This document shows positions 5,259-62,120 of a DNA stretch of 64,000 nucleotides, one piece after another. The first letter of the stretch is position 1; each line of letters begins with the position of its first letter. The DNA is taken from assembly GCA_947184155.2 (NCBI GenBank), contig CAMXCT020000491.1:440345-504344 (forward strand), in the 5' to 3' direction. The notes under the pieces are model-generated. The model did no database searches and was not told where the DNA came from. It saw nothing but the letters and a program-made list of their open reading frames with translations. The position numbers were made by a program, and so were the translations under genes. This stretch comes from Cladocopium goreaui (Eukaryota; Sar; Dinophyceae; Suessiales; Symbiodiniaceae).

Positions 5259-5883
5259 TGTCCAGTTGTGGGATGAACTAACATGAACTAAGCCACAACA
5301 GCTGTACGAAGTGGGGGACCAACCACAGCTCGCTGTCATTTCCATGAGGAAAATCATCTTCCATATCCCATCGGTTTGCGTTTCATGCTGGTTTTCAAGT
5401 GAGCATTACCAAATACACCTCGAAGACCTATACGCATGTGACAATGTCCAATTTTATATTGCATGGGCCCTTGAAAAAAAAACTTATGGTTCGAGCTGGT
5501 TAGGAAAGTATATTTACAAACCCTCAAAAGGCCAGATCGAAACTGTATTCAGTTATAATACATTTCGGTATACATATAACATGATATATGTGTATATATA
5601 TATATATATCCATAGATTAACCATAGATTAACCATAGATTAACCATAGATTATCCATAGATTAACCATAGATTATCCATAGATTAACCATTATTATTAGA
5701 TATTCCTATGAAAAAAACACATATGAATTGTATTAAACTACGGTTATCCGTATTTGACCAAGTTGCCAGGAATGGGATACTCCCATGACATTCAGCGACC
5801 ATGTCGCCCGGTATTTTGCACAGAAATCGAAGACGAAACTTTGACGGCGGAAAACACTGCACCAGAACTATTTTCCTGCCATG

Positions 5884-5968
5884 TAGCCTCTGGTAAACGT
5901 TTACATAACTATGGAAAACCACTATGTTTCATGGGAAAACTCACTATTTCTATGGCCATTTTCCAAAC
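5884..5968. mobile_element. Truncated family 1 MITE
   Basis: Left end GCCTCTGGTAAAC and the loop are present; the right terminus is missing. Confidence 0.6.
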
Positions 5969-9026: not shown

Positions 9027-9053
9027 TCACATTTTCACCATTGCCACAAAGGC
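9027..9053 (-). CDS. lepA: lepA terminal exon, 27 nt: AFVAMVKM stop
   Basis: Encodes AFVAMVKM and TGA after acceptor CTTGGGAG|GCC. With the previous exon it reads [12 protein letters not shown], matching the family's final VPQEAFLAVLKL. An inverted-repeat element starts about 80 bp downstream, in the presumed 3' UTR. Confidence 0.9.
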   Translation of the reverse strand, partial: AFVAMVKM

Positions 9054-12000
9054 CTCCCAAGGAATGGCGTCCAGGTCGTTCAATATGTCACGAACGGTTG
9101 GAGATTCAGAATTGTTGCGAAATTTCTAGAGAGAACTCATGGCCACACCATATTCATCTAATTAGTTCCGCTTTTGATCCCTAAAAGTCGTAGAGATTCT
9201 TTCAAATTCGCACAAGCCTCCAGCTGGAATGGTGGATTTCGGAGGACATGGACACCCGTAAAGAGAGACACGCATTTGCCACTCGATATTGCAAACCTAT
9301 GTGCACAAGTGTATCAGATAATGATATTACATTGTATGTATTACTGTATGGATACCATTGCTGAAACATCCATGTATGGATCATATATATTCTATATATT
9401 GCATCATCACATTTTGTACATAACATGATCATATCTACATGAGACAGACAGCTTGGTACCAACATTTATGAATCATATCCCCATATCACAGGTGCTTGAA
9501 ACACTTATAGTTGATGGTTAAAATTCCCCTTAAATAACCAATCATCGCGCAACAGGCGTTTTGATTCCAAATCCATTCTAAAATCACCCGTTTTTAGCTG
9601 ATTTCACCATCAAATCCTCATTTAAGCAACTAATCATCTATATCTATATCCCAGATTTTGGATGCTTTGAAATTACTTTACTTCGAGTTGTCCCCACCAT
9701 GACATCTATACGTTTTGTTACTGGCAAATCTTCTGGCATTCTATCTGACATATCTTCTGGCATTTTATCTGGCATATCTTCTGGCATTCTATCTGGCATA
9801 TCTTCTGGCATTCTACCTGGCATATCTTCTGGCATATGTTCTGGCATATGTTCTGGCATATGTTCTGGCATATCTTCTGGCATATCTTCTGACATTCTAT
9901 CTGGCATTCTATCTGGCAAATCCTCTGGCATATGTTCTGGCAAACATTCTGGCACTTTATCTGGCATACCTTCTGGCATTCTATCTGACATTCTATCTGG
10001 CATACCTTATGGCATTCTATCTGGCATATCTTCTGGCATTTTATCTGGCATATCTTCTGGCATTCTATCTGGCATATCTTCTGGCATTCTACCTGGCATA
10101 TGTTCTGGCATATCTTCTGGCACTCCTTCTGGCATATCTTCTGGCATATCTTCTGACATTCTATCTGGCATTCTATCTGACAAATCTTCTGGCGTTCTAT
10201 CTGGCAAACATTCTGGCACTTTATCTGGCATACCTTCTGGCATTCTATCTGACATTCTATCTGGCATACCTTCTGGCATTCTATCTGGGATATCTTCTGG
10301 CATTCTATCTGGCAAACATTCTGGCACTCCTTCTGGCATATCTTCTGGCATATCTTCTGACATTCTATCTGGCGTTCTATCTAGCATATCTTCTGGCATT
10401 CTATCTGGCCGTTGAGGTCCAGCGGTGCTCACTGAGCTCGGAGGGTCCCAGGTTGAGAACCAGCGATGCTCACTGAGCTCGGGCGGTCCCAGGTTGAGGT
10501 CCAGCGGTGCCCAGTGCGCTCAGACCCTTGCAGTTGAGGTCCAGCAGTGGCCACTGCGTGCGGAAGTTGGCGAAGAGCTTGGGGAAGAGTTGGCAAGGCG
10601 GAAGTGGACATGGAAGTGGAGGCAGAGGTGGTGGAGGAGAACGAGGAGGAGGAGAAGAAGGAGGAGAAGAAGAACAACTCTGATAAAATCTAACAACCCT
10701 CACCTGGCAGGTGGGGAAAAACTTTGAAGATATTTATCCCCGTGATATAACTATAAAATATCATAATATATTAAATATAATCATCAAACGTCAGGGGTGT
10801 CTGAAGCAGCCACCTTTCGTACGAAAGACGCTGCGGAAGTCTCGCCTCAGGAGGGACTTGCACCTTGGCGATTTCGCGCAGCTTGCGTTTGCCCTCCTTC
10901 TGCCTCGGCGGTGCGCGGTGGTAAAGGTGGAACTATGGGGAGATCAATGGGGATATTATATAAGAATCATCCTTAAGTAATTCATGGGTAATTCATGGGA
11001 GGAATCAACAATGATTATGATTACTATAGTTCATAAAGGTGTGTAACACAAGCATTAAAATTTAACATAGCTATGGAAAATCACCATGCTATTCATGGGA
11101 AAATCCACTATTTCTATGGCCATTTTCAATAGCTATTTTGACATAACCAGGTATGTAACACAACCATAAGTCCTCCGGCGCCTGGGAATGCCTGGGATCT
11201 GGAGACGAACAGACAAAGCCTCACCTGGTGGGTGACCTGACTCATCCATCGTTGATCTTTCTTTCTGGGTGAAAAAAACATGGCTGGTTGGTGGTTGAAC
11301 AAACTACCTACCCCTCTGAAAAATATGTATGAAAGTCAAAGGGGATGATTGTTCCCAATATGTTAGGAAAAATAAAAAATGTTCCAAACCACCAACCAAA
11401 TGGGGTCTATTTAGGCTTTATATGGAGTTATATGGAATTTCAATTGAATGTCATGGTCCCAGATGTGTTGGGTGTTGCGCGTATCCATCTGCCATGCTCG
11501 CAATTCTCTGCATAGACCACGCGCTTTTTGCACGCAGCAAAGGGAGTCCAGCATCCATATGTTCCTAACGTTTGAAACTATATATAAGCCTTGCTACAAC
11601 CTTTGCCTCACAAGTACTGGCTCATGGTTGGCCGGGGCCGGTCAGAATTTTAGCATCTCTGCTGCCATCTCTGCCGCAACTTCTCCTGCACCAGAGCAGA
11701 CATCGTAGACGCACTCCTCGAAGTAGCTGGAATCTGCGGCAGTTCCCAAGTGTTTCTGGCAGAGAGCCTTGGCATCAGCTTGCGCTTGGGCGTCACACAC
11801 CTGGCTGAAACCCGCATTCTGGCCATGCCCATCAAAGTCTTGAAGGTATTGCTGGGCGTGAGGGCTGCCACCAAGCTCTGCCCAAGCTTTCTTGACCTCA
11901 AATTCTTGGTCTTCTCTCGTAGCCAGCTGCAACATTGAACTATTCGAGCTCCGCATGTGCTTTTGGCCTTTTTGGCCCTTGAGCTCGCCACTTACAAAGG

Positions 12001-15000
12001 GTCTCCACTTCTGATTCGTCATGTAGAGCTTCATGTCGATGTGACGACCTTGTCGACACAAGACTTTCAATGTGGCAACTTTCTCATCAGCAATGAACAG
12101 ATCAATCCTCTTCCTGTTCTTGTTACCAACCAGCTGCATGCGAGAAGACGGCCCGGAAAGAAGCACCTCAGGAACTTCTGATGACCACTTCTTGGAGTTG
12201 CTCTGCGTTTGCCATTCGCAGCGTTCCGAAGTGATCTCCATGCTGGATGGCTCTGAACCCGAAGTATCGACCAACAAAAGACCTTTGGTGAAGGACTGGC
12301 GTCCGGCATAGTGGGCAAAGATTTGCCAATCCACATGGGGCTGCGGCAAGCCAAAGTGCCACACCAAGAAAGAGCCTTCCCTCAGCAACGTGTAGTGGCC
12401 GCCATCCAAGGTATGGATATGCGGATCACCCACTATGTCTGCCATGGCTGAGAATCTTGTTGGATTGATCACACCAAAACTTGTCTGCCGTGGGTCCGGG
12501 TCAAATTCGGCAACAGCCATCTGGGTGCCGTGAGCATCAAAGACGGAGGACGGCGAGGCACTGCCCTGATCATCGACTTGGTAAAGGGCTCCACTACTTG
12601 AATCGCGGAAAACCAGTTTTGGTTGCCCACCAATGTATCCAAGGTCAGTACCAGGGGGGTTATCCAATGTAGTTCTGATGAGTGGAAGATTGTTTGCATC
12701 AGCTACACTATCAGGCACACCAATTGAGTCGTAGATTGTCTGTACTGCCGCGAGAAGGGCGGCAGTGTTGTCATTGATATTGACATTGCCCGTTGGACAT
12801 GACTGCGACAAGAACAAGGTGAAAGATGGATTCTCAAGCTCAGGTATTGTAACAGCCAGCAAGCCATTGGCATCAAAAGTACCCCAAACAGAGTTGATTC
12901 GATTCACCATTCCAAATGACGTTGCTGCTGCAGCAGCTCCTTCTTCAGTGGCCAAACCATCAGCCTCGACGCTCCAAATGCATCCCTCGAAGGCGGTATT
13001 TGGAGGTCCACTGAGCTCGATTTTCTGGGAATCCTGAAGAAGTCCTGTTGGATTGGGCTGAAATTCACTGATGAGGTATGAGGCCTTGGTGGCCTTGGTG
13101 GCCTTGGTGGCCTTGATGGCCTTGATGGCCTTGGTGGCGAGGTGCAAATGAGAACTGAGTTCGCATTCATTGGGTTCATTGGGTTCATCGCAGTTGTGTC
13201 CACTGATGACCCCCAGGGCCAAAAGCAACACATGGACACACAGCTTCATGTTGATGGCCGTGTATGCAAGCAGCGATCCACCGTAGATACTCGTTAGGTC
13301 AAGGTTCTAATAACAAAAGCTAGGTTGTAGGTTGTTTGAGCCAAGCGGTGACAAGGTACAATCTATAGAATTTTAGCGTCAAAACCTGTCAAAACCTCGG
13401 CTGCACATTGCTACAAGAGTAAACCAGATTTCAAGATTGACATCATCATCGCAAACATGCACTCCATGGATGGGTTGCTGGGGGTTTGCTGGGATGATGA
13501 AATTGATAGTTAGCCAGTGCATCATTCCCGAAAATTCCCGACGTAAAACGCACCAGTAAGTAAACCATATCCCATAGGATCCATGGTGCTGGTATATATG
13601 CTAACATAAATGGGGTTGATCTTGATGGGATCCATGTTACCATATATAGCAGCACCATGGATCCTATGGGTTACAGTATAGTATATACAAATGGAAGGAT
13701 GACATCCCATGTACTATGGAAAATAAAAAAAATGTTTGAAACCACCAACCAGTATATGTTGATTTACCCATAACATTTGGGGTATATTGATGGTAAATGT
13801 TACCATATATAGCATACATGGATCCTATGGGATATGGTTTACCCAGATTTCTCCCTTCGCCGAGGCACTTCTCCAGCAGCTTGGCCTTGCGCGTGGGATC
13901 CCCACTGTGGCCGTGGCTCAAAATCTTCTGCGCCACCACGTCCTGGCGGTGACCGGGTGATGTCATCGTGTTTTTCATCGTGTTTTTAATGGTGTTTTAT
14001 GGTGTTTTATGGTGTTTTGGAGTGATTTTGATGATGTTTTATGATGTTTTATGGTGTTTTATGATGTTTGTGGTGATTTTATGGTGATTTGTAGTGTTTT
14101 ATGTTGCTTTATTGTGGCTTTATTGTGGTTTGATGAGCATGTTCATGATTTTGTTAATGCGATGTTAATGGGATTTTCTGGGATTCTAGAGGAAATTCAT
14201 GGGTTTTGATGCGATTTCATGGTAATTTAATTTGATTTATATATTGAGGAACTTTACGGTCAATAATTACCAACACTATTCTTGGATTGTTAGGGATTTA
14301 TGGTAGATGGGTGGTAGAACCAACAAACGGTGAATCTGAATTCAAACAGCCAATAATCAATACTAATGGGCCAATACTATATATTAGTTCATGTCTTATG
14401 ATATTCATGGTATGTTCATTTGATTACGACAACATTCTGATGTAGTTTTCCCCAGCCAATTCTAGCTATTTTTTGAACATGCCATGGTTGTGAATTGTTC
14501 AAACCCCCGGGGTTACCCAACCAGTTTCAAAGCCGCTAAAAAGAGAGGGGATCGGCCCCTGAATGACCAACAAGAACGGGGAAAACTCCATGAAAATAGA
14601 TGATCAAGAGGAGTTTTCAAAGGGAAAATCGAAAATCCCCTATAAGTGGAGTTTTCAAAGGGAGAATCCCTATAAATGGTATCTTAACCTGTTTGGAGAA
14701 GGGTCATTGGGGCTGGTCGAAAACCTGCACGGTTCGTCACGGGTGTTGCGTGTGGATCCCGCTGCTGGTGTCACCATCAATTCATGGTCTCGGTGTCACC
14801 AATGTTTGATGTTCATCACATCAAGAAAAGGCAAGTTCCTCAATGACCCAACAAAAAATCATCAAAGTTATATTATTATTATTTTTATTATTATTATTAT
14901 ATATATATACACGTCATTTCAAACGGAGAAAGCATTGTGGTGAAATGAGGTAGGAAAGCATATATACAATCAATCCATATTATAGTAAATCTGAGTACGC

Positions 15001-18000
15001 AGTTTCTATTTGGGTCTCACGCCTCCAAGTATTTCCCCATTATGCCATTCTATCATTGATGTACCTGCTTGTAAACCGAAACCATAAACCATCCCATTTT
15101 TACTAGGAATAGGTGGTATAAGCCCTCCCAAAGGGGGCTTATCATTGGCTTTACCATCACACTAGCAAGTGGTTATCCTCATTAATAAGTCTAAGTGGCT
15201 TATCCCATATACACAAATGAAGTAATACCAGACTTATATCCCAAAGGGAAGGCTCAATTTGAGTGTACATATTCCATTAATTTCCATTATATACTGTGTA
15301 TAGAATTGTATAGATAATCTCCGATTACATCCAAATTTGGGTAATTTTCAGGTATATATATAATCTAATGTGGTGTGGTAAACACAACAATGCACCTACC
15401 ATTTGTGGATGATTTAGCACCCATTTATGGTGATTTTGGGGATGGTTTATGACATCGAATGTACAATGTGGCACTACAATACTATCCATATACACGGGTG
15501 TTTACAATTATTATTACAATATAATAGTAATAACACCGATTGCTAATTATTCATTACAGTATATACAAATGGATTTTACATCACCACACCGTCTTCCCAG
15601 AAGTCATGGCGCCGCACCAGGCCTTTCTCATTGGTTTGACTCTCGCCTGGCAGCCATAGGTGTTGGTGCCCCCCCGGTGATCGAACTGTTGGTTTAGTCT
15701 ACCCCCGCAACTTATAGCGATTTCGAACTGGGGCACCAACTAGTAGAGAGTTAGTTGGCTGGTGAATAAATGGGATTTTAACCTGAATGTCCAAGTTTAT
15801 CAATGGATAATAAAAGACTTTGCTTGATCAGCTATTGCTCTTGCTATTGCTTGTCTTATCCACCAAGTTGCATATGAAAATCATTGAATACTGTTGTGTA
15901 TTCAAATGCATCTACAGCTTTCGATATAACCCATTGACCAGTTAGCTCACTCTATTGCCCATCTATGCCCATCTAATCGTCCTCCAAGGGTATTCAGATT
16001 CCAGTCTGGAAACCCAATATAGTTTAACTACATTTAAATAGAAACCAAATATGTTGTTGCTTCGGGTCCCCACACAGTGGCATGAAAATGCCAAGAAAAC
16101 CCGTGGTTTGTTGCTCAATCTATCCATCTTCGGCAACCCTCATATTGGGTGACCATGACCATTAGAGATGGATATCACATGGCATTGGTCACAATCGGGT
16201 GCCCAAAATGGGATGGTTTACTACTGAAACTGACCAAAATCAAACCGTTTTTTTCATTCTTTTCAAGGTTTAGATTTCTAACAAGAAATGGTGATGAAGG
16301 TGATGATTCCCTAAAACTGCCCAGCCAATCTTAGATACTAACCGCATTTTTTTTAGCTGTTTAGGTTGGGGTCCCAATCATGGAAGTATTCAATATGAAC
16401 CGGGGATGAGAATGTTATAGTGTAGTCCAAGAATGACCCAGAACCCAAAGATGTTCATCTCGATCAAAATGCTCTGACCGTCTGACAAACGTGGGAAAAA
16501 TAGAAAAAACAACACAACAATTAGCCATGGTATAGACGTTTTTACATGGTATAACTGATTACACTTAGCCAGGTTATTACTCTGATTATGGGCGTCTATT
16601 ACACTCTGGTTATGACTAACAGTTCGCCATGGTTAAGCCATGGCCCTAATCGAAATAGATTCGATTTTCGCGAACTACACCTCCATAAAGTTGGTTGGGA
16701 TTTTCCAGCCGGCGATTCTCCCATGATTTTCCTTTCAACATAGCCATTGAAAACTTGGGGGTTAACTGGTTGGTTACCCTCCAGTAAATTAACAAAGACC
16801 CTGGCAGTCATCGGGGTTGGAAGACTAGTGAAACCATTCAAAATGGGTGATTTTCAGGGTCCAACTGTTAATTTACCAGGTTGGGAGATATGATGCAGTT
16901 TTACATTTTTTTGATATGCTATGGCTATGACATAGATTATCTAAGGTAAGAGGGATACCCTCTGGTTATGACTAATATAGCCATGGTATAGATGGCCCAT
17001 AGAAATAGATGGTTTACCTATTAAAAATGGGTGGATCTTTCCATGGCTATGTTAAATAGCCAGATGGTATATCATCATCATAGCATATCATCAATAATAG
17101 TCAGCAGTTGAAAAAAATGTAGTGAGACACATAGTGGGATATCAGATTCTTATGAAGAAATACCATGAAATAACGTTCATAGAATGAAACACTATGGATT
17201 CATATATACATATATATATATATATTCAAACACCTTCTGAGGGGGCTTATGGAATATGATTTGTGGGCTCCTTCTCAGGAAGAATCTGGATCTAGAATAG
17301 TGAAGCAACATAGGTCCGTCTGGAAATGGGGTGTTGAACTCCCATTTTGTAGCAATTCAGTAGGGAAATGTAGGGAAACTGAGGTTCCAAAGATATCCAA
17401 AGATGATGTTCAGATATATTTTCCCAAGTTTTCAGACCTCATATCAATGGGAGATCTTCAGGATCCAATACATGGAGGTACGTTAGTACCATATGTTTGA
17501 CCATTTTTTGTGGGGATATTCCCTCAAAAATAGACCTAAAGAATAGGCCTTATATATGGAATCGGTACCTTCATTTTTTTCGGTTCCCGACTCATGGCCA
17601 TTGATCACATGTCAACCTTGTCAGCTACCCCCCTGGTTGATCGACTCACGCTCACCTTGGCCACCACCTTGCCCCCGACCACCGCTTGAATCGCCACATC
17701 GAACATTTGCCTCGGGCCACGTCGCCGGCACTGCGACCCTATATCTTGAAATGTCTGGAGATTGGGGGTTAAGATTAAGATGAAATTGGGAGGGTTAGGT
17801 GAGACATGGTGAGACTGTGGGTTCAAACACATTGACCCTTGAACCTGTTTGTTTTCTGGTAGGGTATAGCCGCCCTACTCGACGCACATGTGCCTGAAAT
17901 GTTGGTGTGAATTGGGGGTTGTACATGCCTCCTATGGTATATTGATCCGCCGTGTTCCATCAAAACATCTATGCATCTATTTGGCAAGTTGCATCTGTCT

Positions 18001-21000
18001 AAAAATAGTGTACTAGTACGTCCCAAAAAAATCTATTTTTACGGATTCTAACTATTTTTATTCACCACTTACATCCGCTAAGTGCTAGTACGCCCCCCAA
18101 AAGTAGGTTATTCCCTTTATAGATGGATCATAACTATGGTCATTAACATGTTTTCACCACTTACATCCACTTTACCCTCAAGTAACAGTTTACTATGTAA
18201 GCCATGGACCATTTAATTGATACTAACATAGCTAGGATGAAAATGGTAATTTTTTAGTGACCGATGATTTACCTATCCCATAGGATCCATGTATGCTATA
18301 TATAGTAACATTTACCATCAATATACCCCATTTATGTTAGCATATATACTAGCACCATGGATCCTATGGGTATTAAAATGGTGTTTTTCCGTCGCAAAAA
18401 CCGAAAAGACCCTTTTGGGCTCGGCTCAGGTCGGGACGCAGGGATGAGTTTTTCCAACTTCTCCAAGTATCGCCTGGAGACCTCCGAACAAAAATCCGAC
18501 AGTTTCCGACCGTTTCCGACCAAAAAAATGGAGCCAAAGCAGTTTTATGATACATGGCAGTGTGTCAAAACCTTGTACCCCTTCTGTTCACATCAAAATA
18601 GCTGGGATTTATTGATGTTCATTCCCCTAAAAATGCTATGTATATAGGTATTGATCCATAGCCACATCAAGTGGGGTGAAACTATCAAACCCATGACGGA
18701 TCCATGGTGCTGGTATATATGCTAACATAAATGGGGTTAATCTTGATGGGATCCATGTTACCATATATAGCAGCACCATGGATCCTATGGGAAAAGGTTC
18801 AGTTGATTCCATGGGGGCGTGACGTGTTTCAAATTTCCGCTGGTTCTATCGAAACTACAATGTGGGCCCCCCCAGTTATAAGATGGTTTAGTTTCACCCC
18901 ATGAATACTATAGTTATTTAGCTATTACTATAGTGAAACTAAATAACTATGGAATTATGTAGTATTTATCTAAATTAACTACCATGGTTATGGTATAGTT
19001 ATAGTTAACCATAGTGAAATTGGAGTTATGTGCACCAACCAATAGCTATCGTAAACGGGGCCCCACATTGTCAAGAAATGGGCCCCAAACATTGCCCTGA
19101 AAAACAGAACAAAACAAAACGGGGAAAAAGGCAACCATCATGGAATATGTGTACAAGATTGTGACATGTATATATATATATACAGTATATATATATAAAT
19201 AATATATATATATATATCTAAATATCTAAAAATCCACATATCTATATATATATACATACATACGAATCGATTTATGGATTTATGGATTTATTGTATGTAT
19301 CCTATGTCCCAGGCGTCTCCCGGGAGACTCGCTGTGGATCCAGCAGCTGAGTGAACTCGTGCCGATCATGCTGGCTGTGAAGCTAAGCTGGCTGTGGCTG
19401 AAAAGAAATGAGGAACTCTAAGCATTTCACCATTTACTGTACATCTGTACATATGTACATATTAACTTAAACAACAAAAACAACATGTGAACTTACCAGC
19501 AGCCCCATAGCACAATGGCAGCGATGTGAACTCCTCAGAATTTCCGACAGGACCTGGAACCAAGGTAAATCACCCAACCTGGACCGACTTGGACCTGGGA
19601 ACAACTTTGGATTGGCATAAGACGGACTAAAACAATAATTCCTAGTAAATTTCCCAAATGGTGGAATAGTCAATTGGAAAACAGAAAACATCTTCAGCAA
19701 TTCTAAGCAAATATATGCATATGTAATATTACACAAAGAAAACATACGTTGAATACAGTAAATCCATGGAAACAAAAACATATAATATATACCATCTGGT
19801 TATTTGTTACAGTTCGCCATGGTATAGATGGCCCATAGAAATAGATGATTTTCCCATTAAAACATACCATCTATGTTTAAGGCCCATACTGTATCTCAAT
19901 CATCTTTGCCGGTTCAAACGGTTCAAACGCCCCATTGTCGCCAGTGGAATTGCAATGGACTTGCCAGTTTTTTACCAACATGTTCGATCATTTATGATGG
20001 TTAAACCATGTTAAACCATGTTAAACCATGTCAAACCAATCTTTGCCACCATGTTTGATGGTATTTCATGGTTACCCTCTGGTTATTTAACAGTTCGCCA
20101 TGGTATAGATGGCCCATAGAAATAGATGGTTTTCCCATTAAAACATACCATCTATGTTTAAGGCCCATACTGTATCTCAATCATCTTTGCCGGTTCAAAC
20201 GGTTCAAACACCCCATTGTCGCCAGTGGAATTGCAATGGACTTGCCAGTTTTTTACCAACATGTTCGATCATTTATGATGGTTAAACTATGTTAAACCAT
20301 GTTAAACCATGTCAAACCAATCTTTGCCACCATGTTTGATGGTATTTCATGGTTACCCTCTGGTTATTTAACAGTTCGCCATGGTATAGATGGCCCATAG
20401 AAATAGATGGTTTACCTAGCTATAAAATGGGTGGATCTTTCCATGGCTATGTAACAAATAACCAGAGGATAAAACATGGCTAAAACGCCATAAATTTTGG
20501 CTGAAAAAACCGTTGGTCAATCCCTTGAACCATAAATCACCATTAATCCCACTATTGATCCCATTAAACCACCATTCACCACTTGTTATTTAACAGTTCG
20601 CCATGGAAAATCCCTCATAAATGGCGGTTTTAATAGGTAAATCATCTATTTCTATGGGTCATAATGGGTCATTTTCCATGGCGAACTGTTAAATAACCAG
20701 ATGGTAACCACCATTAACCACCAAAAAAAAACGAGGACCTCCGGAGCTTTCTCCCGCAAGGCGAAGAAACTCAGGGCGTCCACCACTTCGCCATTGAGAC
20801 GGAGGTGCACCTGGCTTTAATGGTGATTTAATGGTGGTTTTATGGGATTGTATGGTGGTTTTATGGTGGTTAATGGTGGTTTAATGGGATCAATAGTGGT
20901 ATTCATGGTGATTGAATGGTGGTTTAATGATGGGCCAAATAGTGATTCATGGTGATGGTGATTAGTGTTTTTTTCTGGGTAAAACAATGCCATGTTAACC

Positions 21001-29091: not shown

Positions 29092-29127
<36 letters not shown>

Positions 29128-38088: not shown

Positions 38089-38120
<32 letters not shown>

Positions 38121-44100: not shown

Positions 44101-44777
44101 TTTGTAAATAAAATTGAGCACCCCAGACACCCGGCGTCAGCACATCTCCGGTCCCCACGGGTCCCCGTGCCATATTCGCTGGTGAGTCGTTGGCGAAAAA
44201 CGTCCAAGTGCAACAACCCAAGGAAGCCGCACCTGTCAGGTGGGAACTAAAAGAGCTAATCCAACCACGCAATCACTCCACTTACACGACACAAAGGACG
44301 TGTTTTCTTTTAATCTTTCTACAATCGCGCACTGGTAGGGGTCAAATGACCTGATGTATACCCTCTGGTAAACTAACATAACTATGGAAAATCACCGTTT
44401 TTAGTGTGAAAATCCACTGTAAATGGCAATTTTCAATAGCTATGTTAAATTACCAGAGGGTAATGGTCAATGGTAAATATAAATGGAATACAATGGTGTA
44501 CACACATAGCCTACTCGGGAGTGCAGTTGAGGTTTTTAATGGATCTATACCCTCTATATCCCATGGCCAATCTATTTGTGGGTCTGAAAATGGGTGATCC
44601 CCAAGACATCCCAAAAAACTGGTTTCAATACTAAATTATGGTCTAATTTTGGATGATTTGGGGGTACCCCCGTTTTTGGATGTATATACATAAATATATA
44701 TATATATACATATATATAGAGATACATGTATACATATATATATACATACACATATATAGGTTATATAGATACATGTA

Positions 44778-44811
<34 letters not shown>

Positions 44812-47800: not shown

Positions 47801-50800
47801 CCTCCACGGAGGCGTCGGTCAGCAGCAGCCGCTGGATGGCGGTCTCCAGCTTCTCGCCGTCGCCCACAGCCTCGTTTGACGAGCGGGTGGCCAGGAACGC
47901 TGGTTGAACTAAGCGACAAAAATTGGGGAAAATTCGGTGCGTTGCCAACAAAAATTGGGATTTAACCATGGGAATAGAAGCAATCGACAGGATACTGCAG
48001 TTGAATTATGGTAGGCAAGTTGGTCTATAACTAGGCTGACGCTCGGGTTAAGAGATATTTGTGGAAGCACAGCTGCTTGACATCATGCACCGACAGCAAC
48101 GGTTATGGAAAAAAACGGGAACTAGGGAACTTCAAACAATTGCTCCATGACTAATGAGCAGTTCCTTGAACCTTTAACCCCTTCTGGACTGATATGCGGG
48201 GATAAGTTGCATAGTGGAAGCACTGGAAGCACGCTTTAAAAAATTATGTGTACAGGAAAAAAACAAAGAACCACCAACAAAAATCCAAAAATTACTTTAC
48301 TTCGAGTGATCCCCACCATGACATTTATCGATTTGTTACTGGCAAATCTTCTGGCATTCTACCTGGCATATCTTCTGGCATTCTACCTGGCATATCTTCT
48401 GGCATATGTTCTGGCATATCTGCTGCGATTTTTCCAGATTTTGCAGATTGCCTCGGCCAATTTCATAGTCCTTGATCTCCTCCAACTGATCCACAATCAG
48501 TTCTTTGCATGCTCCCTTTGCAAACAGCAAAAAGCTTTCATCGCTGTTGCGTGGCAGCCGGTGGCTTTAATTTTCAAATTGAACATCACAACCAAACAGT
48601 AGCTGCGCAAATTTGACCGTGTCAGTCACAACCAACATCACCATAGCTGCAAAGCACAGACAGTGGATCTACACCACATACATAAATATATATTATCCAT
48701 GTTTTCTGCATTGATATACAAACAGCCAACATTCTATATTCACATTTGAATGGAAATGTTCTATTCAGTCTAACAAACAAAAATTTCAGCATGTTTTGAT
48801 CGCAAACAGCCAAGACTTTTGGATTCGAACCAGAGGCGCGAAATGAGCTATTCTGTCTAACCATGTTTCTTAGCTTCGCAGCTGCTTCCAAGCAGACCCC
48901 AGAGCACGAGCCTGCACCATTGCCGCGACTGAGCAAAAGCAAAGAACCTGCCACAGAAAAAGCATGCAAGCAGTGCATATGGGCTACAGGCATCAACAGT
49001 GCCCAGCCTCCAGCAAGGATCGAGAACACAACCGAAGTGCCACAGTGTCACTACGAAGCACTATGATGCAAATGCTGTGATAACAGTGCTGTCATGTACA
49101 AGCTAAGCAAGCTGTTACTAACCCATACATACTTCTAACATCCACCTCATGCATACCAGCTGAACCACATGTCAGTTACAAGTGTTGTCATGCAACTGCT
49201 GTGATGCAACTGCTGTCATGCAAGTGCTGAAAGTCAAAACCAGCGCAAGCTGTTGCTTACCAATACAAACTGCTAAGATACACATGATGCAATGCTGTTC
49301 AAACACATCATCCGTTCCACGAGACAACTTGCTTTGACTTGATCTTGCTTGACCCAGGACCCAGCAAAGCAAGCGATCCACTCAAATTCTACACACATGA
49401 TCTTGTATTCTATCTGGCTTATCATCTGCTGTTCTTTGTCCATATGTTCTAGTCCACTTGACTGGCAAACTTCTTTCGGAGGTTCTATCCTGCATATCTT
49501 CTGGCACACTTTCTGCCAATCTATGTGGCATATCTTCTGGCATTCGATCCGGCATTCTCTCTCGCATATCTTCTAACATTCTAGCATTCTATCTGGCATA
49601 TCTCATGGCATTTTATCTGGCATATCCTCTGGCATTCTATCTGGCATAGCTTCTGGCATTCTATCTGGCATATCTCATGGCATTTTATCTGGCATATCTT
49701 CTGGCATTCTATCTGGCAGAGCTTCTGGCATTCTATCTGGCATATCTCATGGCATTTTATCTGGCATATCTTCTGGCATTCTATCTGGCACACTTTCTGC
49801 CAATCTATGTGGCATATCTTCTGGCATTCCATCTGACATTCTATCTGGCATATCTTCTGGCATTCTATCTGCCCGTTGAGGTCCAGCAGTGCACACTGAG
49901 CTTGGGAGGTCCCCGGTTGAGGTCCAGCAGTGCACACTGCGCTGGGCAAATCCCAGGTTGAGGTCCAGCGGTGCACACTGGGCTGGGCAGGTCCCAGGTT
50001 GAGGTCCAGCGGTGCACACTGAGCTGAGACGGTCCCTGGTTGAGGTCCAGCGGTGCACACTGAGCTGGGCAGGTCCCAGGTTGAGGTCCCAGTACACACT
50101 GAGCTGGGAAGTTGGCAAAGAGCCTGGCGAAGAGTTGGCAAGGCGGAAGTGGAGGTGGAAGTTGATGCAGACATGGTTGAGGAGAAACTAGAGGGGGAGG
50201 AGGAGGAGGACGAGGAGGAGGAGGAGGACAGCTAGCCGAGGAGGAGGAGGAGGAGGAGAACAGCTCTGATAAAATCTAACAACCCTCACCTGGCAGGTGG
50301 GGAAATATGTTTCGTTTTCGTTTTCGCTTCTGATTTTGAAAAACATGTTCAATGGATTTGTCTGAAAACAGGGTGCTCCAAAATTACCGATTAAAACGGC
50401 CACAACATGGAGGTATACCTATTATCAAGCGCACCTACTGTGATCATTAATCCCCAGTACATCAGCATTCATTGCTAATTACGTCGGACCCCGTTTCTCC
50501 AGTGAAGTCTCCATTGCTTTAAAAAAACAACCCTGGATGGTTAATCATCATTCTGCATTTTTTCTGATCAATTCCCATTGAACATCCTGAAATGGATATG
50601 GTTCAAAATTGGGTACCCCAAAAGTTGGACGGTTCATACTAAAAATAAACTAAAAACAACTAAAATCTGTGGTTCCACAAGTCTTCTATTTTGAGCCATA
50701 CCTCAATTTCATCGACCGTTAGTTGTGGCGTTCAAGGACCCGCACCTCAGGGAAAATGCCGGCGTAGACCATGGGCTGTGCGGGGCGAAAGCCCGGGAAG

Positions 50801-53800
50801 GCTTGGCCCAGCTTCTCGCCGCCTGCAACGGATAGAGCAGGGTCTTAGTAGGGGTTGGTGGGGAAAATAATGGTAGAGTTTGGATTGGTTTTCATGGGAT
50901 TGAATGCGGTTTCAATGTTTTAGTGGGAATCTAGTAGGTATTGATGTTGCTTTCATGGTGATTTGGGATTGCTAGAAATTGCGATGCGTTGTAATGAAGT
51001 TTTCTGCAAATAGAAGCCACAAAATTATACAAAATTGGGATATGGCTGGGATGTAAAGAAAATCCACTGGCCAAACTAGTGGGCGGTTGAGCCACCTATC
51101 CAAAAAAGTGAAAATCATGTGGGACCGTCATTCCAGGTAGGAGGAAATGTGAAGAAAAAAGGAAACAAAAATAAAAACAAGAAAACAAAAACAAATACAC
51201 CGCAATGAAAGTAGATGGCACTGCCCACTTCGAAAGTGCGCGTATAGATGGCGCCGACTTTTTGAAATTTGACACTTCAAAAGGGCGTGACATCTCAGGC
51301 CCCGTTTCATAGTTGGTTGCGCCATCTATGCCAAGAATCTCGCAAATTAGGAATCGAGATGTTCGATGTTTCTTTTAATGCAGTTCCCACTGGCTGCCCT
51401 GCAGAATCCTTGAAATGCCTCTAAGTTTGGGGATTGCGCCATCACGCAATCTATTCCTGCCTTTGCGGGTTTGGGTTGGGTTTGCAGCTGTTTTATGCAC
51501 TACCTATTCAATTCCCACAATGTTATTGTAGATCCTCCCATTCCAGCAATATTTTCGGGGACTTGTAGCCCTTTTGGGGGTTGCGCCATCCATTCCTCCA
51601 TTTTTGGGTTGTGGCTGGATTTGCAAGGGTTCCCACGGGAATATACACTTTTGAATATTAAATGCCAATTTCAGTCACATTTACAAGACCAAAAACGAAT
51701 AATATAGTAGCACGAAAAAAAAACATAAGTAAAAAAACACATGAAAGTGGAAGCAGTACTAATAAAAGTAACAATAAGAAAAAAAATGGTAATCGTAGTT
51801 TGTCTATATATGCACATTGTTTGCCTCCTGCCAAGGCTTTTGTCTGTTGGCAGAAAAAATAAACCTGGATTTTCTTTAGGGAGCCCCATGGGAGCCTGTT
51901 GAATTTGTTGCGGTTCATTTCGCCCTAAGCCGGCTGAGGCGATTTGGTCATCTTGCATGTGAATCCCCCGTTCCTGGGTTGCCCCGGTTTGAAGTTCTCC
52001 GTCGGAACCCATGGATTTCATTCACTTTCACACGTTAGAACTTAGCCGACTCCCCCCAGTGCACGCCTGAGGTCCCCAGGTCCAAAATTCATGCTTGCCC
52101 GACATGGTTTGATTTCAGCCCGTCCGCAATTGCTGGTTTATGACTCTGCCTACGGCATGCGTGCCCGTTGGTCCCTTGCGCTGTAGCGTTTTCTACGGCT
52201 CGGGCCGGCCAAGCACTGAAGGATCGCTTCGCAGCTCTAAGGGCCACAATCTCAGATCAAGCAAAGTGCTTGATGCAAAAACCAAGGAACCTTTTAGGGC
52301 GGCAAACCTATTTTTAAAAATATGCCCTGGTCGCTTCGCTTGATGAGGAGCAACCCGAGAGGAAATGGCATGTTGTCTTGTTGCCTTCGCTGTTTTCTTC
52401 GAGCACTTTCTGCACAAGGATAACTGGTTCATCATCTCTTTACTTTTGAAGGATATCACAGACCACAGTCGCTATAAATAAGCCTATCTAATCCTCTTCT
52501 CGTCACTATCAGTTTGACCTTCACAAGACTATATATATATATATCTTTCTGCTTAGCATGTACCCTCTGCCAATTCAACAGTTTTCTATGAAGAATCATA
52601 CCCTCTGGTAAACAAACATAGCTATGGAAAATCACCACTTTTAATGGGTAAATCAACTATAAATGGCCATTTTCAACAGCAAACTGTTAGTTTACCAGAT
52701 GGTATTTTTTGAGTGGTGAATCATCCAACTAAATGAGCCATCTATACCATAGCTATGTGAAATGACCGAATGTAACCCATGTTAATCCCAGTGTAAATCA
52801 CGTTTACATGGCATTAACCACGGTCACTATAAATCGATATTAACCACCACCAAATGGATATTCAGAGAAGGATAATATCTCCATGGCAAGCACTAAACAA
52901 CAGCCTACCAGTCTAAGGGATCCTCTTGGTGCAAAACATGGTGACTCTTGCGCAAAAAATGCAAAAAGGCTTTATAAACAAAACACGGCACCCCAAAAGG
53001 GGCAAAGGTTTATAGTTCTTCACCATAGGATTTAATGGGGATTGATTTACTGTATTTACTATAAATGGGGATTGATGGGTAAATTAAAGTGATTAAAACC
53101 ATTTTAAAAATTGTGTTTTACCCATTAATGGGGATTTACTATGATTTACTGGAAATAGCATCTTTTTAAGGATGACAAGTTGTCCATCATGTTTTCACTT
53201 CAAAAACTGCCAGTCTTTGGACACACCCTCATTCGAAAACATGGCTTTGTTCGTGGAATTCTGCAGACCCAGGGGACCCAGTCCTCAGATCCCTCCGGAA
53301 ACTCGACATTGCTGAATGACCCATTCTGCAAAAGATCATTTACCCGGCCTGGTAAACATACAAAAAGCTATTGAAAATATGGCCATTTATAGTGAATTTA
53401 CCCATTGAAAATAGTCATTTTCTATAGTTATGTTAGTTTACCAGAGGGTACTGTCAGAAAGATCTTTAAACATGGTGATTTTCCATAGCAAACGGTTGCA
53501 TTACTAGAGAGTAGACGGGATTTGGAAAATGGTGATGTTCCCATTGCACCATGCAGGATGCCTATCCCCCATGGTTGGACATGCTCCTGCTCTTAGGACT
53601 CGCTGACATAATCTGACATAATGGAAACTAGAACCACTGGTGACCAACTGATATGCATCATGTTATATATAGTTATACAATTATTGGTATGGGTCAAACT
53701 TGGATACCCCTAAAATCAAAGATTGTTGCTGAAAAGGACCAAAGTCCGTGGTCTTGTGGGCAATACATCTTGACCTATAGGCAGACGCGTTCATAGCCAA

Positions 53801-56800
53801 TACTACTCTTATATCTTTTCAGGGCCCAGTGGCAAGAATAAACCATACAAAAACCCTTTTAACATGATGTATATTATTGTCCAACCTTAGCTAGATTGAC
53901 CAGGATTTTTCTAGATGTTTTCATGTTTTTTTTGACTTGGGAGTAAATTGCCAATTTAGCAATGCATGTGTTCTAAGCTTTGAAGAAATTCAACATATTT
54001 CACCATCCTTCGCAGAATGCTCCCGCCTTCTGCGAAGACGGTCTCACCCACGCGGAAACTCCGAATGTCCTGAAAGGAGACCGTCACTTTGCCACTTGGG
54101 TATATCACCAATGAATATGATATTCAACCAACCACTATCCAATACATAATAGGAATAATTCAGATGTAATCAACAATATATCAATGGCAATTTCAGGACC
54201 CAACAGATGGAGCTACGTGTTTACGTACCATTTTTCAGGCCACAAAATATGTGGGGATATGCCCGAAACGCGCTGAAATTTAGACCTCAGTAATATAGTA
54301 GGTACCTCTTTTTCTTAGGTCCCTGAGTCATGGCCATCTGAACAATTTAGCCATGGGATTTCCATCAATTTGATCACTTCCATGTGGATGTAAGCAGCTC
54401 ACGCGCGCCGGGATGATGATCAAACACCGGCACACACCGGATTCGGGGTTTGATCGCAGCAAAAAAAACACCAGCACATGTTGGATTTCAAAGAGATTTC
54501 AATCGGAAAAGTGCAGAAACAAAGAGGTTTGAAGATCACAAAGAGGATTTCTAGATATTTCATGATATTTCTAGAGTTCAATCGGCAAAATTGGGATCTG
54601 CTGGGAGTTTATCAGCAAACATTGGGAATCGAGAAGCAAACGCGGGAATGGGGTCGGGGAGACTACCGAGAACTTGGTGGGAATTCGATGTGAAACAAGG
54701 TCATGGCTCGCGATGAAATGTGCGTCCGACTATTTTTGCCCAGCACAATTCAGTGGGTTCAGGGTTGTTTTCCCTGCCCACAATCTACAAATCAACTTCA
54801 CCCAAACACTGATCATGTCTGCCTGTTACACCATGTTTCATTGTTAGATCCCTACTCCTCATTCATTAAATCAACAGTTCAACATGTTTGCCCATTGAAC
54901 CTACAAACAAATGGCTAATTCCCATTAAATCACCATTGAAGTCCCATAAAATCACCATTTCATAGGTTAAACCATGTTGAACCCACCATTTTCCCCGTTG
55001 AAACCCTCCGTTTCGCACCTTGGCGCCGACCACGATGAAGCCGATCTGCCCGCTCTGCAACAAGTCGCTGGAGCAGAGATCCGGATAGAGGAAACCCAAG
55101 TCCTCGGCAGAAATGTGAAGTGATGGGGCCGGGGTTGGTTGGATGATGAATATATATATATATATAATTTACGATTTAATTCCATAGTATAACTATTACC
55201 AAGTAAGATTAACAAGAAACATGTCTCAATCTGTTGGAAGATCAATTAACTTGGAGATACCTACCATATAGAAGGTTTATATATGTCATTTGAGGTACCG
55301 GAAATGGCCATTGATTGGTTGGTGCTTCATCCTAACCACGTTGCTACACATGGCCGGCGTTGATTGGTCGAACGACTGCCCAATAATATCTCTTGGAAAT
55401 GCCATGGCTAAGAGTCCAAGAGATCCCTGGAAGGAAGGTTTGATTTAAAGGAAAAGGTCCATGAAACCACATGATCCACATGCGGTTGAATGGATGACCC
55501 ATCTAGGTCCAGAGCCCCATAATCGATTGCACAAGTTTAAACTCAAAATCTTCTGCTTTTCCCCACAAAAACCCGTCAGCTCCTCCCGAACAGCCCGTGG
55601 AACTCAAGAGCCCGAAACGGTTGAACTCCGCCGAGTGTCCGCGGCTAGATGGACGCGTTTCCCATAGGAGCAATAGATCTTGCTGCCCCTTTTCAGCTCT
55701 CCATCCTGATCTCCAAAAAAATGGAAGAAGTTTCCAACCCTCCAAGTGGACGAGAGTCAGAGCTTTGCATTTACAATATGAATTTATTTTTTAAAAAATG
55801 ATGAGTTCGCCCGAATTTGATGACTGGTTGGTGGTTGAGTCACCCCGCTGAAAAATATTATATAGTCAATTGGGATGATGATTCCCAATATATGGAAAAA
55901 ATATTCGAAACCATCAGCCAGATGATCTTCACAAAAATATGCATTTGCACGAGTTGATCTGTTAATCAAGAAACTCAGAGTTGTCGAGGGAAAATCTCGC
56001 CCCAGGGATGAAAAAAAGGGAAAAATTGTCCATTTATGGATGATCTGCCGATCGGCCTTTTCCTATTACTGTAATCAATCCAGGATCCATATCAATCCTA
56101 TGAAAAACATGGTGATTTTCCATAGCTATGCTAAAGATAAAGGAAATTACCACTTGATCGGACAGGACATGTGTGTTGGAAAGCCTAAGATAGCAAGATG
56201 GTCCCTTCTGAGGTATCCACATCTGAAAAGTCATCAGTTTCAGCAGGTCCCCATATATAGATGTCGGCAGATCGTCCCTGGAAATCATGGAACTTTGGGA
56301 ATTGCCCATTTCCACAAAAAGCCAGGTGCCCCTCAGGCAAATAAGTTGGCATAAAACCCCATCTATATATATAAGTATAAGTATCATACACTATTCTTGT
56401 TACTATAGTTATAAACAAACTTAGCCAACACACTGGGGCCCCATCCTGCCCCATCCTGCATGTGACTACTACCGAACTCCCTGGGGCCCCATCCTGTACG
56501 GCCACATACAGAACCATGCCGCGACGGCCTGCACGTGAAAACACACAAGATGTGTCAGGTCAAAGCGCCGAATTGGGAAATTGGGAAGTTACAAATTGGT
56601 CCCTTTGGATCCCTTTGGATCCACTATAAATCACCATTTTCAATGGGTAAATCCACTATAAATCACTATAAATTCACTGTAAATTCCCCCATATGGCAGT
56701 GTGTCAAAACCTTGTACCCCTGTAGTTCACATCAAAATAGCTGGGATTTATGGATGTGAATAACCCCCTAAAAATGGTATTAATAGGTATTGATCCATAC

Positions 56801-57259
56801 CCAGATGAAGGTAGTTTACCAACAAAAAATCGGGGACTACAGTAAACCATGGGAAAGAGTGATATGGATCCCCTCTGGTTATTTGTTACAGTTCGCCATG
56901 GTATAGATGGCCCATAGAAATAGATGATTTTTCCAGCTAGAAACCTCCATTTATAAGGGATTTTCCATGGCTATGCTAGTCATAACCAGATGGTAAGATG
57001 ATTTTTACCCAACATGGGGAGATATAGATATAGACTCTATATATATATATATATATACACTATCATATACTATCATATACTATCATATACTATCATATAC
57101 TATCATATACTATCATATACTATCATATACTGTCATATACTATCATATACTATCATATACTATCATATACTATCATATACTATCATATACTATCATATAC
57201 TATCATATACTATCATATACTATCATATACTATCATATACTATCATATACTATCATATA

Positions 57260-57326
<67 letters not shown>

Positions 57327-60300
57327 CCCCCATTTATCAGTCTGCATGCCTGTATTCATCTTTTCTTTTTTCTATGGACATATACACTATATATATATAT
57401 ATATATCATTATATACATTTAATTTACATACATGATCTCCGCTTTCGGCCCTGCATGGGGAATACCAATAAATTATCAACGGCGAAGGCCATAGCATGTC
57501 CAGTTGTTTCCCTTGGGATTCCTGTGATTTTTCATGTGAGTTGTAGCCCTCTTACTTGGATGTTCATCCCAGTTACCAGACTACCTTGTAATCCAAGTTT
57601 AGATGGGCTATGTATACATAATATGCATATATTGATTTAAAACCACATACTAACTGGGATGCACACATCTCAAACAAGTTGACTCTGACAGTAATTGTTT
57701 AACCAGAGGTGATCGTTGAAGTGTTTGCACTACTTGTGCTACTTTGATCAACTTTGATCAATGTACCATTTCCAAACTGGATCACCAACAGTGGCTGCAG
57801 TATCTGGTTTAATTTACCATTTTCATCCATTGCCACAGTTATCAAACATAGTGGGATTGTTTCCAATGTTGATTTATTTCCCAACAAGTAGTTATTGTTT
57901 TTCCCCACCTGCCAGGTGAGGGTTGTTAGATTTTATGTCAGTTGCCTCCTCCTCCTTCTCCTCCTTCTCCTCCTCCTCCTCCGCCTCCTCCTCCGCCTCC
58001 TCCTGCCTCGTCCTCCTCTCCTCCCCTCCTCGTCCTCCTTGTCATCCTTGTCGTCCTTGTCGTCCTCGTCGTCCTCGTCGTCCTCGTCGTCCTTGCTCAA
58101 CTGCGACCCGCGATCCACAGTGTTCTCTGCCGGACCTCAACCACGACCATCCACGCCCAGTGTTCCCTGCCGGACCTCAACCACGACCATCCACGCCCAA
58201 TGTTCCCTGCCGGACCTCAACCACGACCATCCTCGCCCAGTGTTCCCTGCCGGACCTCAACCACGACCATCCACGCCCAGTGTTCCCTGCCGGACCTCAA
58301 CCGCGAGTATCCACGCCAAGTGTTCCCTGCCGGACCTCATGTAGGAAGATATGGGACAAAGAATGTGCAGAAGAAAGTTAGCAAGAATGTCAGAAAGAAT
58401 GTCAGAAGATATGCCAGAAGATATGCCAGATAGAATGCCAGATAATATGCCAGAAGATATGCTAGATAGAATGCCAGATAGAATGCCAGAAGATTTGCCA
58501 GATAGAATGCCAGAAAATATGCCAGAAGATATGCCAGATAGATATGCCAGAAGATATGCCAGAAGATATGCCAGAAGATATGCCAGAAGATATGTCAGAA
58601 TATATGCCAGAAGAAATGTCAGATAGAATGCCAGAAGATATGTCAGAATATATGCCAGAAGATATGCCAGATAGAATGCCAGAAGATATGTCAAATAGAG
58701 TGCCAGAAGATATGCCAGATAGAATGCCAGAAGATTTGCCAGATAGAATGCCAGAAGATATGCCAGAAGAAGATATGCCAGATAGAATAGAATCAAATAG
58801 AATGTCAGAAGATATGTCAGATAGAATGCCAGAAGATTTGCCAGTAAGAAAATGTATAAATGTCATGGTGGGGATCACACGAAGTAAAGTAATTTTAATG
58901 TCAGCATCCCACCACCTATTTTTAACGTCAAGATCATACCTTTTTCTTGTCAAGATTGTGTATAAATGTTTTCTTTTCAAAAAAGAAACAGAATCTTAAT
59001 CGCTTGGTCTCTCTCATTTTGACGTTTGCACCGCAAAAAAATCACCGTAAAACTGTTCCTTTTCGAGTCACTGTCGTACTTGGCATCAAAGAGCAGAGCT
59101 TTGAAGGGCGCCTTCGAAGCTCCTGGCTTTCTTCGAGGGTGAAAGATGGGGGGTTCTTAGTCCATCTTCACTCCCAAAGCGATTCAAATTGTTAGATTCA
59201 ACTAAAGTATTCTCAAAAGATATGGCAGATGGTTCCAAACATGGACTCAGATTTACCCCCAAAATGGAATTAGACCGAGCATTTTATGGGAAAGACTGCG
59301 GATGTAAATGATATTACCACTTATTTTCAGATTATATAGTGAGGATAGCTCGGGTTTGCAAGGGATATTTACAATGGGACACCTGGAAAAACCATCTAAA
59401 AATGGGGATATGATACAAGGATTAGGGTTGGGCATACTATACATGGAATGGTTGCGGTTCAAGAACTGGTATCCTGGTATCGGGGGGCAATGGCAAATAT
59501 GGGGAGGTCAAGCAACTTGCAACAGAACACCCCAAAAAGCTCAACCAACAAAAAGTACGGGGATCTGAAACCAAGAATTGTGATATGAACTTTCGAACGG
59601 ACTATATTGGACCAACGCTAATATATGTGAACTTGATTGGGATCTAACCAACTAACACATGATTTAATCAGAATGCAAAGAACGCAGATTCAATGCGGAT
59701 GTCTGCAGATTTCACCAACAAAACCAGTTGGAAAAATGGGACTTCAGCAACATAACTGGGGATTTAGCTATAGGCTATAGCAAATATTTGGCACCTGAAG
59801 GTAAAATGTTCATAACACTTAAATAGGGGATACCACAGCTTTGAGGAAGAATTTCCACTCTCCAATTCGATCGCTTACTGCGAGGCATCTTGGGATCACA
59901 TACCTTATCTGAACTTCCCCAAGATTCCCCAAGCAGGGAGGGTCAGTTTGTTCATCAGCAACTTTGTGACAACCCATATCTATCCATATCTCCTATCCAA
60001 TCTCTCTCAGCGAAGACAAAAACAAATGGTTGAGATATACCGAAATTGAATGGCCAAATCATATCATGATGTGTATACCATTGATATACCATTGAATACC
60101 AAATATTCCTTTTGATGTTTCTCATACACAAAAGGAATGGTGCTTACTCCCTCGACCATGATAGATTGAGTGGCCAAATCTCAAGGAAAATCACCGTGTC
60201 TCTTAATGATTTTTCCACTTCCGTTCGAAAACTCGCAGAGTTTTCTCTCAATAAAAAGGGGACCTCAGGTTCGATGATTTGCTATCATTATTTCTTGGCC

Positions 60301-61992
60301 AAATCCACATTTTTGTCTGGGTATGTGAAGTTCAAAAAAACAGTTCTTGTTGTGCAAAAACCAACCATAGATATTTGCTGCTTCAGCATCCATTTTTGCT
60401 GCTTCAGAATTCATTGTCGCTGAGTTTACTGATCAAAATCAACATGTTTGCTGGTTGAAATTAATTACAATTCTTTGAGTGAAACAACTAAATTTCATAG
60501 GTGACATTCCGGTTTTTGCCCACTTTGCCAGGTGAACAACCGGATTTTTACACATCTTTACTGGTTCTATACCATCTGTTGCTGGTTTTCCAATGGGTTT
60601 TTGCCCCTCCAAAAACCAGGAATCGCGATCGACCAGTTCGCCTGGAGGTGGAGGTACCTTCTGGATGATGGCCTCCTCAGGAGCTCAACGATCTACCGGA
60701 GGCTGATCTAGATTAACCATTGGAAAATGGCTTTCAAACAATAAATAATGGGATAATCATCAATGATGGGATTATAATAGTGGTTATAATAATACTAGTG
60801 GTTATATAATGGGATAGAATGGGATTATAATGATGGGATTATAATGGGATAATCATCAATAATGGGACTACTAGATATATCCTGGTTGGTGGTTATAATG
60901 GGATAATCATCAATAATGGGATTATATGATAATAGTGGTTATAATACCAATAATAGTTGGTTGGTGGTTTCAAAGCCACCCCTCTGAAAAATGATGGAGT
61001 TCGTCAAAGTCAGTTGGGATGATGACATTCCCAAGATATGGAAAAATCATCCAAATGTTCAAATGACCAACCAAATCCTATTCAAACGGGGTTCACCGCA
61101 TGTGCGGAAAAAATGCCCAAGCTACTGTAGATTCCATGGGGTAGGTTATATAGTATCCCATCCCTCTGTCTCATGGGAAATCCCAATTCTTGCTGTTTTC
61201 ATCCCATGTTTCCTGGTATTGGTGACTTCCCTAGTTTCAAACATATGATTTTCTATATGTTTCCACTTTTTGGATCACCCATTTAACCCTGGAAAATTTC
61301 CACTGAATTTCCCCAAGCAACGTCCGCAGCTGAGGCACCAGAAGCTCAGGCACACCAGCCCCTGTCTTGCCACTCACCTGTCAGGGGATCGTCCCGAGTT
61401 TCGATTGGCGCATGGGATTTTTTTTTCAGTCCCCTACTTCTCGGCAAAATTCTCATGTTTGTTCATGTTGTTACCCTCTGGTAAACATACCAAAAGCTAT
61501 TGAAAATGGTCATAGAAATAGTTGATTTACCCATTAAAAAAGGTGGTTTTCCATATGTTTACCAGAGGGTAATTCGCTGAATCCCAGCAATTACTTGCTA
61601 GTGACTACAGAATGATAGGGAATGGGACCAAATTTCGCCGTACTTGGGGGATCGACCCACTTAGTAACTGCTTTTTAGCGGTTGATAACATATCACTATG
61701 GTATATCCCACGTATAACGTGTATATATATATAGTATATCTCTATATATATATGTATATATATATGAGGAGCGGACAAAATTATACGCTAAATCTAATGC
61801 CATGCACAAATTAGGGTCGTCCCCTATCGGTTATGAAGGTTTTGTGCAACCTCGGGCAGGCCAAGGCGAAGCAAAACTAAATCAGTCTTACAATAATTTT
61901 GTCGGTTACGCATATATATATATATATATTTATATGAATATTTATATCCCATTGGTAAATTGCTATGATATTATCTATCCCATAATATCAAC

Positions 61993-62024
<32 letters not shown>

Positions 62025-62120: not shown

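Follow-up and report, generated by a model that had tools for sequence, protein, structure and literature searches.

The window analysed here, a 64-kb stretch of Cladocopium goreaui DNA (C491:440345-504344), carries on its minus strand, from 62120 down to 9027, 29 exons of an EF-4/LepA gene that spliced alignment traces from just before the G5 motif through the stop codon. These exons measure 9-84 nt, and their 1,385 nt of coding sequence, stop included, are spread over 53,094 bp. A scan of the window with Rfam at gathering thresholds gave 0 hits.

Exons were placed with a custom spliced aligner in which a GT, GC or GA donor and an AG acceptor are obligatory, a G after the acceptor is favoured without being obligatory, GA donors score lower, and split codons are resolved. 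The guides were E. coli LepA, the protein P0001, and a blind profile. P0001 was found by homologue search and is a 642-residue protein encoded without introns on a contig of 2,026 nt with the source label 'lgn', which we take to denote assemblies of public reads. The blind profile was made from 16 of 18 aligned relatives, with the closest two, P0001 and P0002, excluded. The features are given below in window coordinates, with the guides that recovered each exon in brackets.

62074..62120, minus strand: exon 12 of 40, first in the window, its first two bases completing codon 182 (P0001 threading)
61339..61377, minus strand: exon 13, with the G5 motif SGKTG (E. coli LepA and P0001 threading, blind profile)
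60642..60675, minus strand: exon 14 (E. coli LepA and P0001 threading)
59072..59122, minus strand: exon 15, its last base A giving S239 (G in P0001) (P0001 threading)
56494..56528, minus strand: exon 16 (P0001 threading, blind profile)
55640..55705, minus strand: exon 17 (P0001 threading, blind profile)
55019..55102, minus strand: exon 18, 84 nt, the longest in the window (E. coli LepA and P0001 threading, blind profile)
54027..54069, minus strand: exon 19 (P0001 threading, blind profile)
50746..50822, minus strand: exon 20 (P0001 threading, blind profile)
47802..47870, minus strand: exon 21 (E. coli LepA and P0001 threading, blind profile)
45382..45422, minus strand: exon 22 (E. coli LepA and P0001 threading, blind profile)
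44171..44232, minus strand: exon 23, with CGFLGLLH (E. coli LepA and P0001 threading, blind profile)
43036..43100, minus strand: exon 24 (E. coli LepA and P0001 threading, blind profile)
41873..41935, minus strand: exon 25 (P0001 threading, blind profile)
40873..40896, minus strand: exon 26 (P0001 threading, blind profile)
37897..37956, minus strand: exon 27 (P0001 threading, blind profile)
33609..33617, minus strand: exon 28, a 9-nt microexon (P0001 threading, blind profile, enumeration)
32608..32654, minus strand: exon 29 (P0001 threading, blind profile)
31779..31794, minus strand: exon 30, 16 nt (E. coli LepA and P0001 threading, blind profile)
29852..29881, minus strand: exon 31 (E. coli LepA and P0001 threading, blind profile)
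27887..27940, minus strand: exon 32 (E. coli LepA and P0001 threading, blind profile)
21820..27886, minus strand: intron 32, the longest at 6,067 bp, about half of it two arrays of one ~330-bp tandem repeat
21805..21819, minus strand: exon 33, 15 nt (E. coli LepA and P0001 threading, blind profile)
20739..20810, minus strand: exon 34 (E. coli LepA and P0001 threading, blind profile)
18438..18481, minus strand: exon 35 (E. coli LepA and P0001 threading, blind profile)
17656..17710, minus strand: exon 36 (E. coli LepA and P0001 threading, blind profile)
15623..15646, minus strand: exon 37 (E. coli LepA and P0001 threading, blind profile)
13869..13942, minus strand: exon 38, with the altered C-terminal tip GHSGDP (P0001 threading, blind profile, protein comparison)
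10846..10903, minus strand: exon 39 (P0001 threading, blind profile)
9027..9053, minus strand: exon 40, the last, with the stop TGA (P0001 threading)

With E. coli LepA as guide, collinear LepA exons were recovered on the minus strand, together with forced false exons under lenient costs. P0001 gave the 29 exons with 459 of 460 residues identical and a threading score of 1948 on the true strand, whereas the plus strand scored 27, and a shuffle and the reversed sequence 30 each. The blind profile returned 29 exons at the same places, with ends that differ at three of them: the exon at 60675 is 11 nt too long, the exon at 59122 starts 11 nt late and the last exon is one codon short. It scored 2049; among the controls, the plus strand reached 54, two Markov-shuffled windows 57 and 46, and the profile with its columns shuffled 60. 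Short islands in 53 kb could perhaps be threaded into any conserved protein, and lenient costs do force false exons, for example upstream of 62120 and between 42244 and 35794. However, the distance between controls and true scores (46-60 vs 2049 for the blind profile, 27-30 vs 1948 for P0001) and the near-complete identity to P0001, an independent sequence, leave practically no probability that the chain is a product of chance or of guided assembly. The sequence-only reading had proposed a gap-free EF-4/LepA chain on the minus strand, from before G5 to the stop with its split codons resolving, which agrees with the present model, and had put the coding part at about 1.37 kb in 53 kb; its count of 28 exons has to be raised by one, and its size range of 15-84 nt holds at the upper limit and fails at the lower, where the microexon lies.

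This smallest exon (33617-33609), which encodes Glu-Leu-Ser, was recovered by the blind profile too. Enumeration, under the same splice rules, of segments of 3-33 nt lying between the two adjacent exons, whose ends were free to move by 12 nt, gave it as the sole solution (1 found). The only mismatch to P0001 falls in codon 239, which is split over exons 15 and 16 (59072/56528): the genome has S (AGC) there, and P0001 has G. A single difference, A to G at the final base of exon 15, accounts for it, and polymorphism, RNA editing or a junction slip are its candidate causes.

When adjoining contig stretches were added to the window, a whole-gene model was obtained on the minus strand of C491, with the ATG at 515249, a stop ending at 449371 and a span of 65,879 bp. 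It comprises 40 coding exons and a 1,929-nt coding sequence with a complete open frame of 642 residues, 641 of them identical to P0001; the window holds about 72% of the gene, the 3' part, and the N-terminal 182 residues lie outside. The exons have a mean length of 48.2 nt and a median of 48 (range 9-99), the 39 introns a mean of 1,640 bp and a median of 1,165 (range 302-6,067), with a GC content of 0.59 in coding sequence and 0.40 in introns. All 39 introns follow the dinoflagellate spliceosomal pattern of GT, GC or GA donors and AG/G acceptors, those of the window included, as the sequence-only reading had recognised from its AG/G junctions. The donors are GT in 23, GC in 13 and GA in 3, types that the aligner imposes, and the acceptor is AG/G at 39 of 39, the AG being imposed and the following G only favoured. 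The exon ahead of the intron ends in AG in 28 of 39 cases, and 31 of 39 junctions are able to slide by 3 or more bases. For C. proliferum, PMC10666404 gives an AGG acceptor share of 96.1%. GT donors make up 59% (23/39) here vs 36.6% in that species (PMC10666404), and the donor shares are soft, given the lower score for GA in the aligner and the sliding of 31 of the 39 junctions. Spliced by these rules, the 39 introns would be removed to leave the 1,929-nt coding sequence of a 642-residue GTPase.

P0001 is a contiguous sequence that crosses these junctions, with its RNA or DNA origin unstated. Because the assembly (1.166 Gb, 6,202 contigs, 34 matches) yielded no near-identical copy lacking introns, P0001 is best read as a cDNA, and we infer that its sequence derives from mRNA. 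The one differing residue might be taken to mean that the locus is a decayed, unexpressed copy and that P0001 stems from another, working locus, yet all 40 exons are open in frame with 641/642 residues identical, and a second matching locus is absent among the 34 matches in the assembly, which makes such decay very improbable. The EF-4 gene is real and complete, with a structure in the upper range for these algae.

The protein P0001 scores 678 bits against the TIGR01393 equivalog (cut-off 533.9); the window part alone scores 465.7 bits (E 2e-139), under the cut-off because the N-terminal 182 residues are missing. In Pfam, P0001 has GTP_EFTU, EFG_C and LepA_C above cut-off, the last (PF06421) with 119.4 bits against a cut-off of 29.7; PF14492 (26.6) and PF22042 (21.9) fall short of theirs, which is 27, and the 5 Pfam hits include no family for EF-G domain IV. 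These profile matches bear out the LepA assignment that had been made from the bare letters. With bacterial EF-4/LepA (E. coli, 3cb4) and TIGR01393 the protein shares a full-length match, the G1-G3 and G5 motifs, the LepA-specific C-terminal domain and the lack of an EF-G domain IV family among Pfam hits, and it is 40-42% identical to two bacterial LepAs. It differs from them in having SKVD at G4, where they have NKID, and the tip GHSGDP with a 5-residue insertion, where they have CYGGDI. Ahead of its G domain, P0001 carries an N-terminal extension.

NKxD is the guanine-specificity motif. The SKVD of the window EF-4 departs from it, and in an alignment of P0001 with 17 relatives SKxD stands in 17 of 18 rows and NKCD in one; SKxD bears more on nucleotide specificity than on family placement. 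A tip resembling CYGGDIxRKxKLL is likewise lost: P0001, P0002 and P0013 have GHSGDP with the 5-residue insertion, whereas CYGGD is kept in the 6 other rows compared, and a plastid-type protein keeps CYGGDI.

A plastid-type EF-4 is encoded in the same genome at C1088:106816-93160 (L013, L015-L022), in 28 exons of 14-101 nt over 13.7 kb. Mapping with a doubtful extra 9-nt piece gave 29 exons and 522 of 526 residues identical to P0121; the piece, at C1088 116396, is taken as a false end extension. The N-terminal 159 residues were not found in C1088:106817-130300. As in the window gene, the exons are tiny and the acceptors AG/G, and the protein is of the Symbiodiniaceae plastid type (P0121; P0124 of Durusdinium trenchii, P0126 of Symbiodinium natans).

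A tree of 26 proteins groups the window gene with P0001, P0002, P0013, P0019 and P0023 (100/100) on a long branch (2.09), outside a cyanobacteria/chloroplast clade (100/100) that holds the plastid-type EF-4s, including named Durusdinium, Symbiodinium and Effrenium proteins. The five companions are presumably dinoflagellate, to judge from the collections they stem from (EukProt, MMETSP and read assemblies) and from their similarity to the EF-4 gene. Algae that keep a plastid should require an EF-4 for it, and the window gene could be taken for that one, the more so as its position in the tree is not a positive placement, the tree being built without animal, fungal or plant mitochondrial GUF1. 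Against this, the separate C1088 gene is of the type found in the cyanobacteria/chloroplast clade (100/100), to which the window gene does not belong, so that we consider a plastid identity improbable. The mitochondrial reading is the natural one because the plastid-type copy in the same genome is already accounted for. We are confident that the window carries the 3' ~72% of a dinoflagellate nuclear gene for an organellar EF-4/LepA, probably a mitochondrial one of GUF1 type. Going by its family, the product would be a mitochondrial GTPase that binds the ribosome as other EF-4s do.

Two full-length single-frame LepA hits elsewhere, L001 (C1) and L002 (C2380), were considered as retrocopies and rejected, as they appear bacterial. 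They lie in stretches of GC 0.60-0.67 with closely packed ORFs, and they group together, apart from both eukaryotic EF-4 types. L001 and L014 are on C1 (7,377,000 bp), and L002 and L012 on C2380, bacterial-looking contigs in a dinoflagellate assembly; since the genes seen on C1 are bacterial in look, this largest contig appears to be a contaminant.

The sequence-only reading had called the gene structure extreme even for dinoflagellates, which stands in part. Compared with the C. proliferum averages in Table 2 of PMC10666404 (exon 120.4 nt, 17.2 exons, intron 839 bp, span 15.7 kb), the EF-4 gene has a mean exon of 48 nt, 40 exons, introns of 1,640 bp and a span of 65.9 kb, so that exon number, shortness of the mean exon and intron length each deviate from these averages by roughly a factor of two or more, and the span by a factor of four, species means being the only yardstick. 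However, in Table 1 of PMC7789003 exons have a median of 53 nt in Breviolum minutum (mean 99), 51 nt in Symbiodinium microadriaticum (mean 109) and 81 nt in Fugacium kawagutii (mean 256), and the median of 48 nt found here is therefore near two of these three published Symbiodiniaceae. Far longer introns, of 88 and 178 kb, are also on record (PMC7789003). In its exon median of about 50 nt, its GC and GA donors and its AGG acceptors the gene thus resembles other Symbiodiniaceae genes as described in PMC7789003 and PMC10666404, and it stands apart from the C. proliferum averages in the exon count, mean exon and span just given. The fine cutting is not peculiar to the window gene, because the C1088 gene is likewise split; the main difference between the two is intron length, the 27 introns of the C1088 gene averaging about 450 bp, about a quarter as long.

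The two EF-4 genes have 2 exact intron positions in common out of 31 and 27, a number reached by 244 of 2000 random sets, and these exact matches give no indication that introns are shared; 7 pairs fall within one alignment column, a looser match taken without a control. Repeats lie in several introns of the window gene. In intron 32 (27886-21820), two arrays (23413-25243 and 26368-27591) consist of the one ~330-bp repeat, about 89-96% alike in listed pairs. A palindromic MITE-like element of ~105 bp, with the ends TACCCTCTGGTAA...TTACCAGAGGGTA, occurs at 20 places in the window (30 rows, strands merged; for example 44359-44462), 13 of them between the window's first and last exon and another, 62278-62383, in the preceding intron; it recurs on contig C1088. 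Composite tandem arrays lie at 9721-10674 (intron 39), 49473-50258 (intron 20) and 57945-58849 (intron 15; inverted), all in EF-4 introns, each with three parts in the same order: a 24-mer (CTGGCATATCTT...), a 40/41-mer and triplets.

Introners, reported as common in dinoflagellates (PMC11453091), by definition carry inverted repeats of 8-20 nt close to each end of the intron (PMC10666404), and the structure could on that account record recent insertion of inverted-repeat introner transposons. The sliding of 31 of 39 junctions by 3 or more bases resembles the direct repeats of 3-5 nt that such insertion should leave, but this slide is largely the AG/G splice consensus itself, and an inverted repeat of at least 8 nt between the first and last 30 bases occurs in 0 of 39 introns, against an average of 0.49 with swapped ends. 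An introner origin is therefore unlikely. We propose that the gene may have become long by gaining many introns, which then grew through tandem repeats and the ~105-bp palindromic element.

Among the 23 best hits to the window EF-4 (P0001-P0023), none has an NCBI or UniRef source, and P0002 (EukProt) has a name like that of a gene model. Homologue searches comprised the best 120 matches each and proteins of 0.55-1.75x query length (about 247-785 residues for the window EF-4), and would have passed over gene models that are fused or fragmentary. The result suggests that some dinoflagellate gene sets may lack conserved genes that are finely split. For the plastid-type EF-4, four of the best 120 matches have an NCBI/UniRef source (Durusdinium trenchii, Symbiodinium natans, Effrenium voratum and Polarella glacialis). 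Literature searches on dinoflagellate microexons, short exons and LepA/GUF1/elongation factor 4 gave nothing on the EF-4 gene among the titles and abstract openings of the matches listed. Tentatively, the window gene might belong to a distinct, fast-evolved dinoflagellate organellar EF-4 lineage with SKxD and a tip remodelled where other EF-4s approach the peptidyl-transferase centre, possibly adapted to the unusual mitochondrial ribosome of these algae, in which the gene can be split finely enough for most public gene sets to have missed it. A 29-exon chain invisible to ORF finding can be recovered by reading sequence alone, and the fully resolved gene model, with its microexon and its GC and GA donors, offers a test case for gene predictors.

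Nested in intron 38, on the same strand as the EF-4 gene, is a single-exon ORF of 535 residues (13249-11642, minus strand). No Pfam family was found on it, nor a relic spliced leader beside it, the window having 5 matches to the leader motif at no more than 3 mismatches vs 2.9 expected. The ORF has 36 homologues, 8 of them EukProt gene models, which bear either s-numbered names or Skav names, the latter denoting Fugacium kawagutii.
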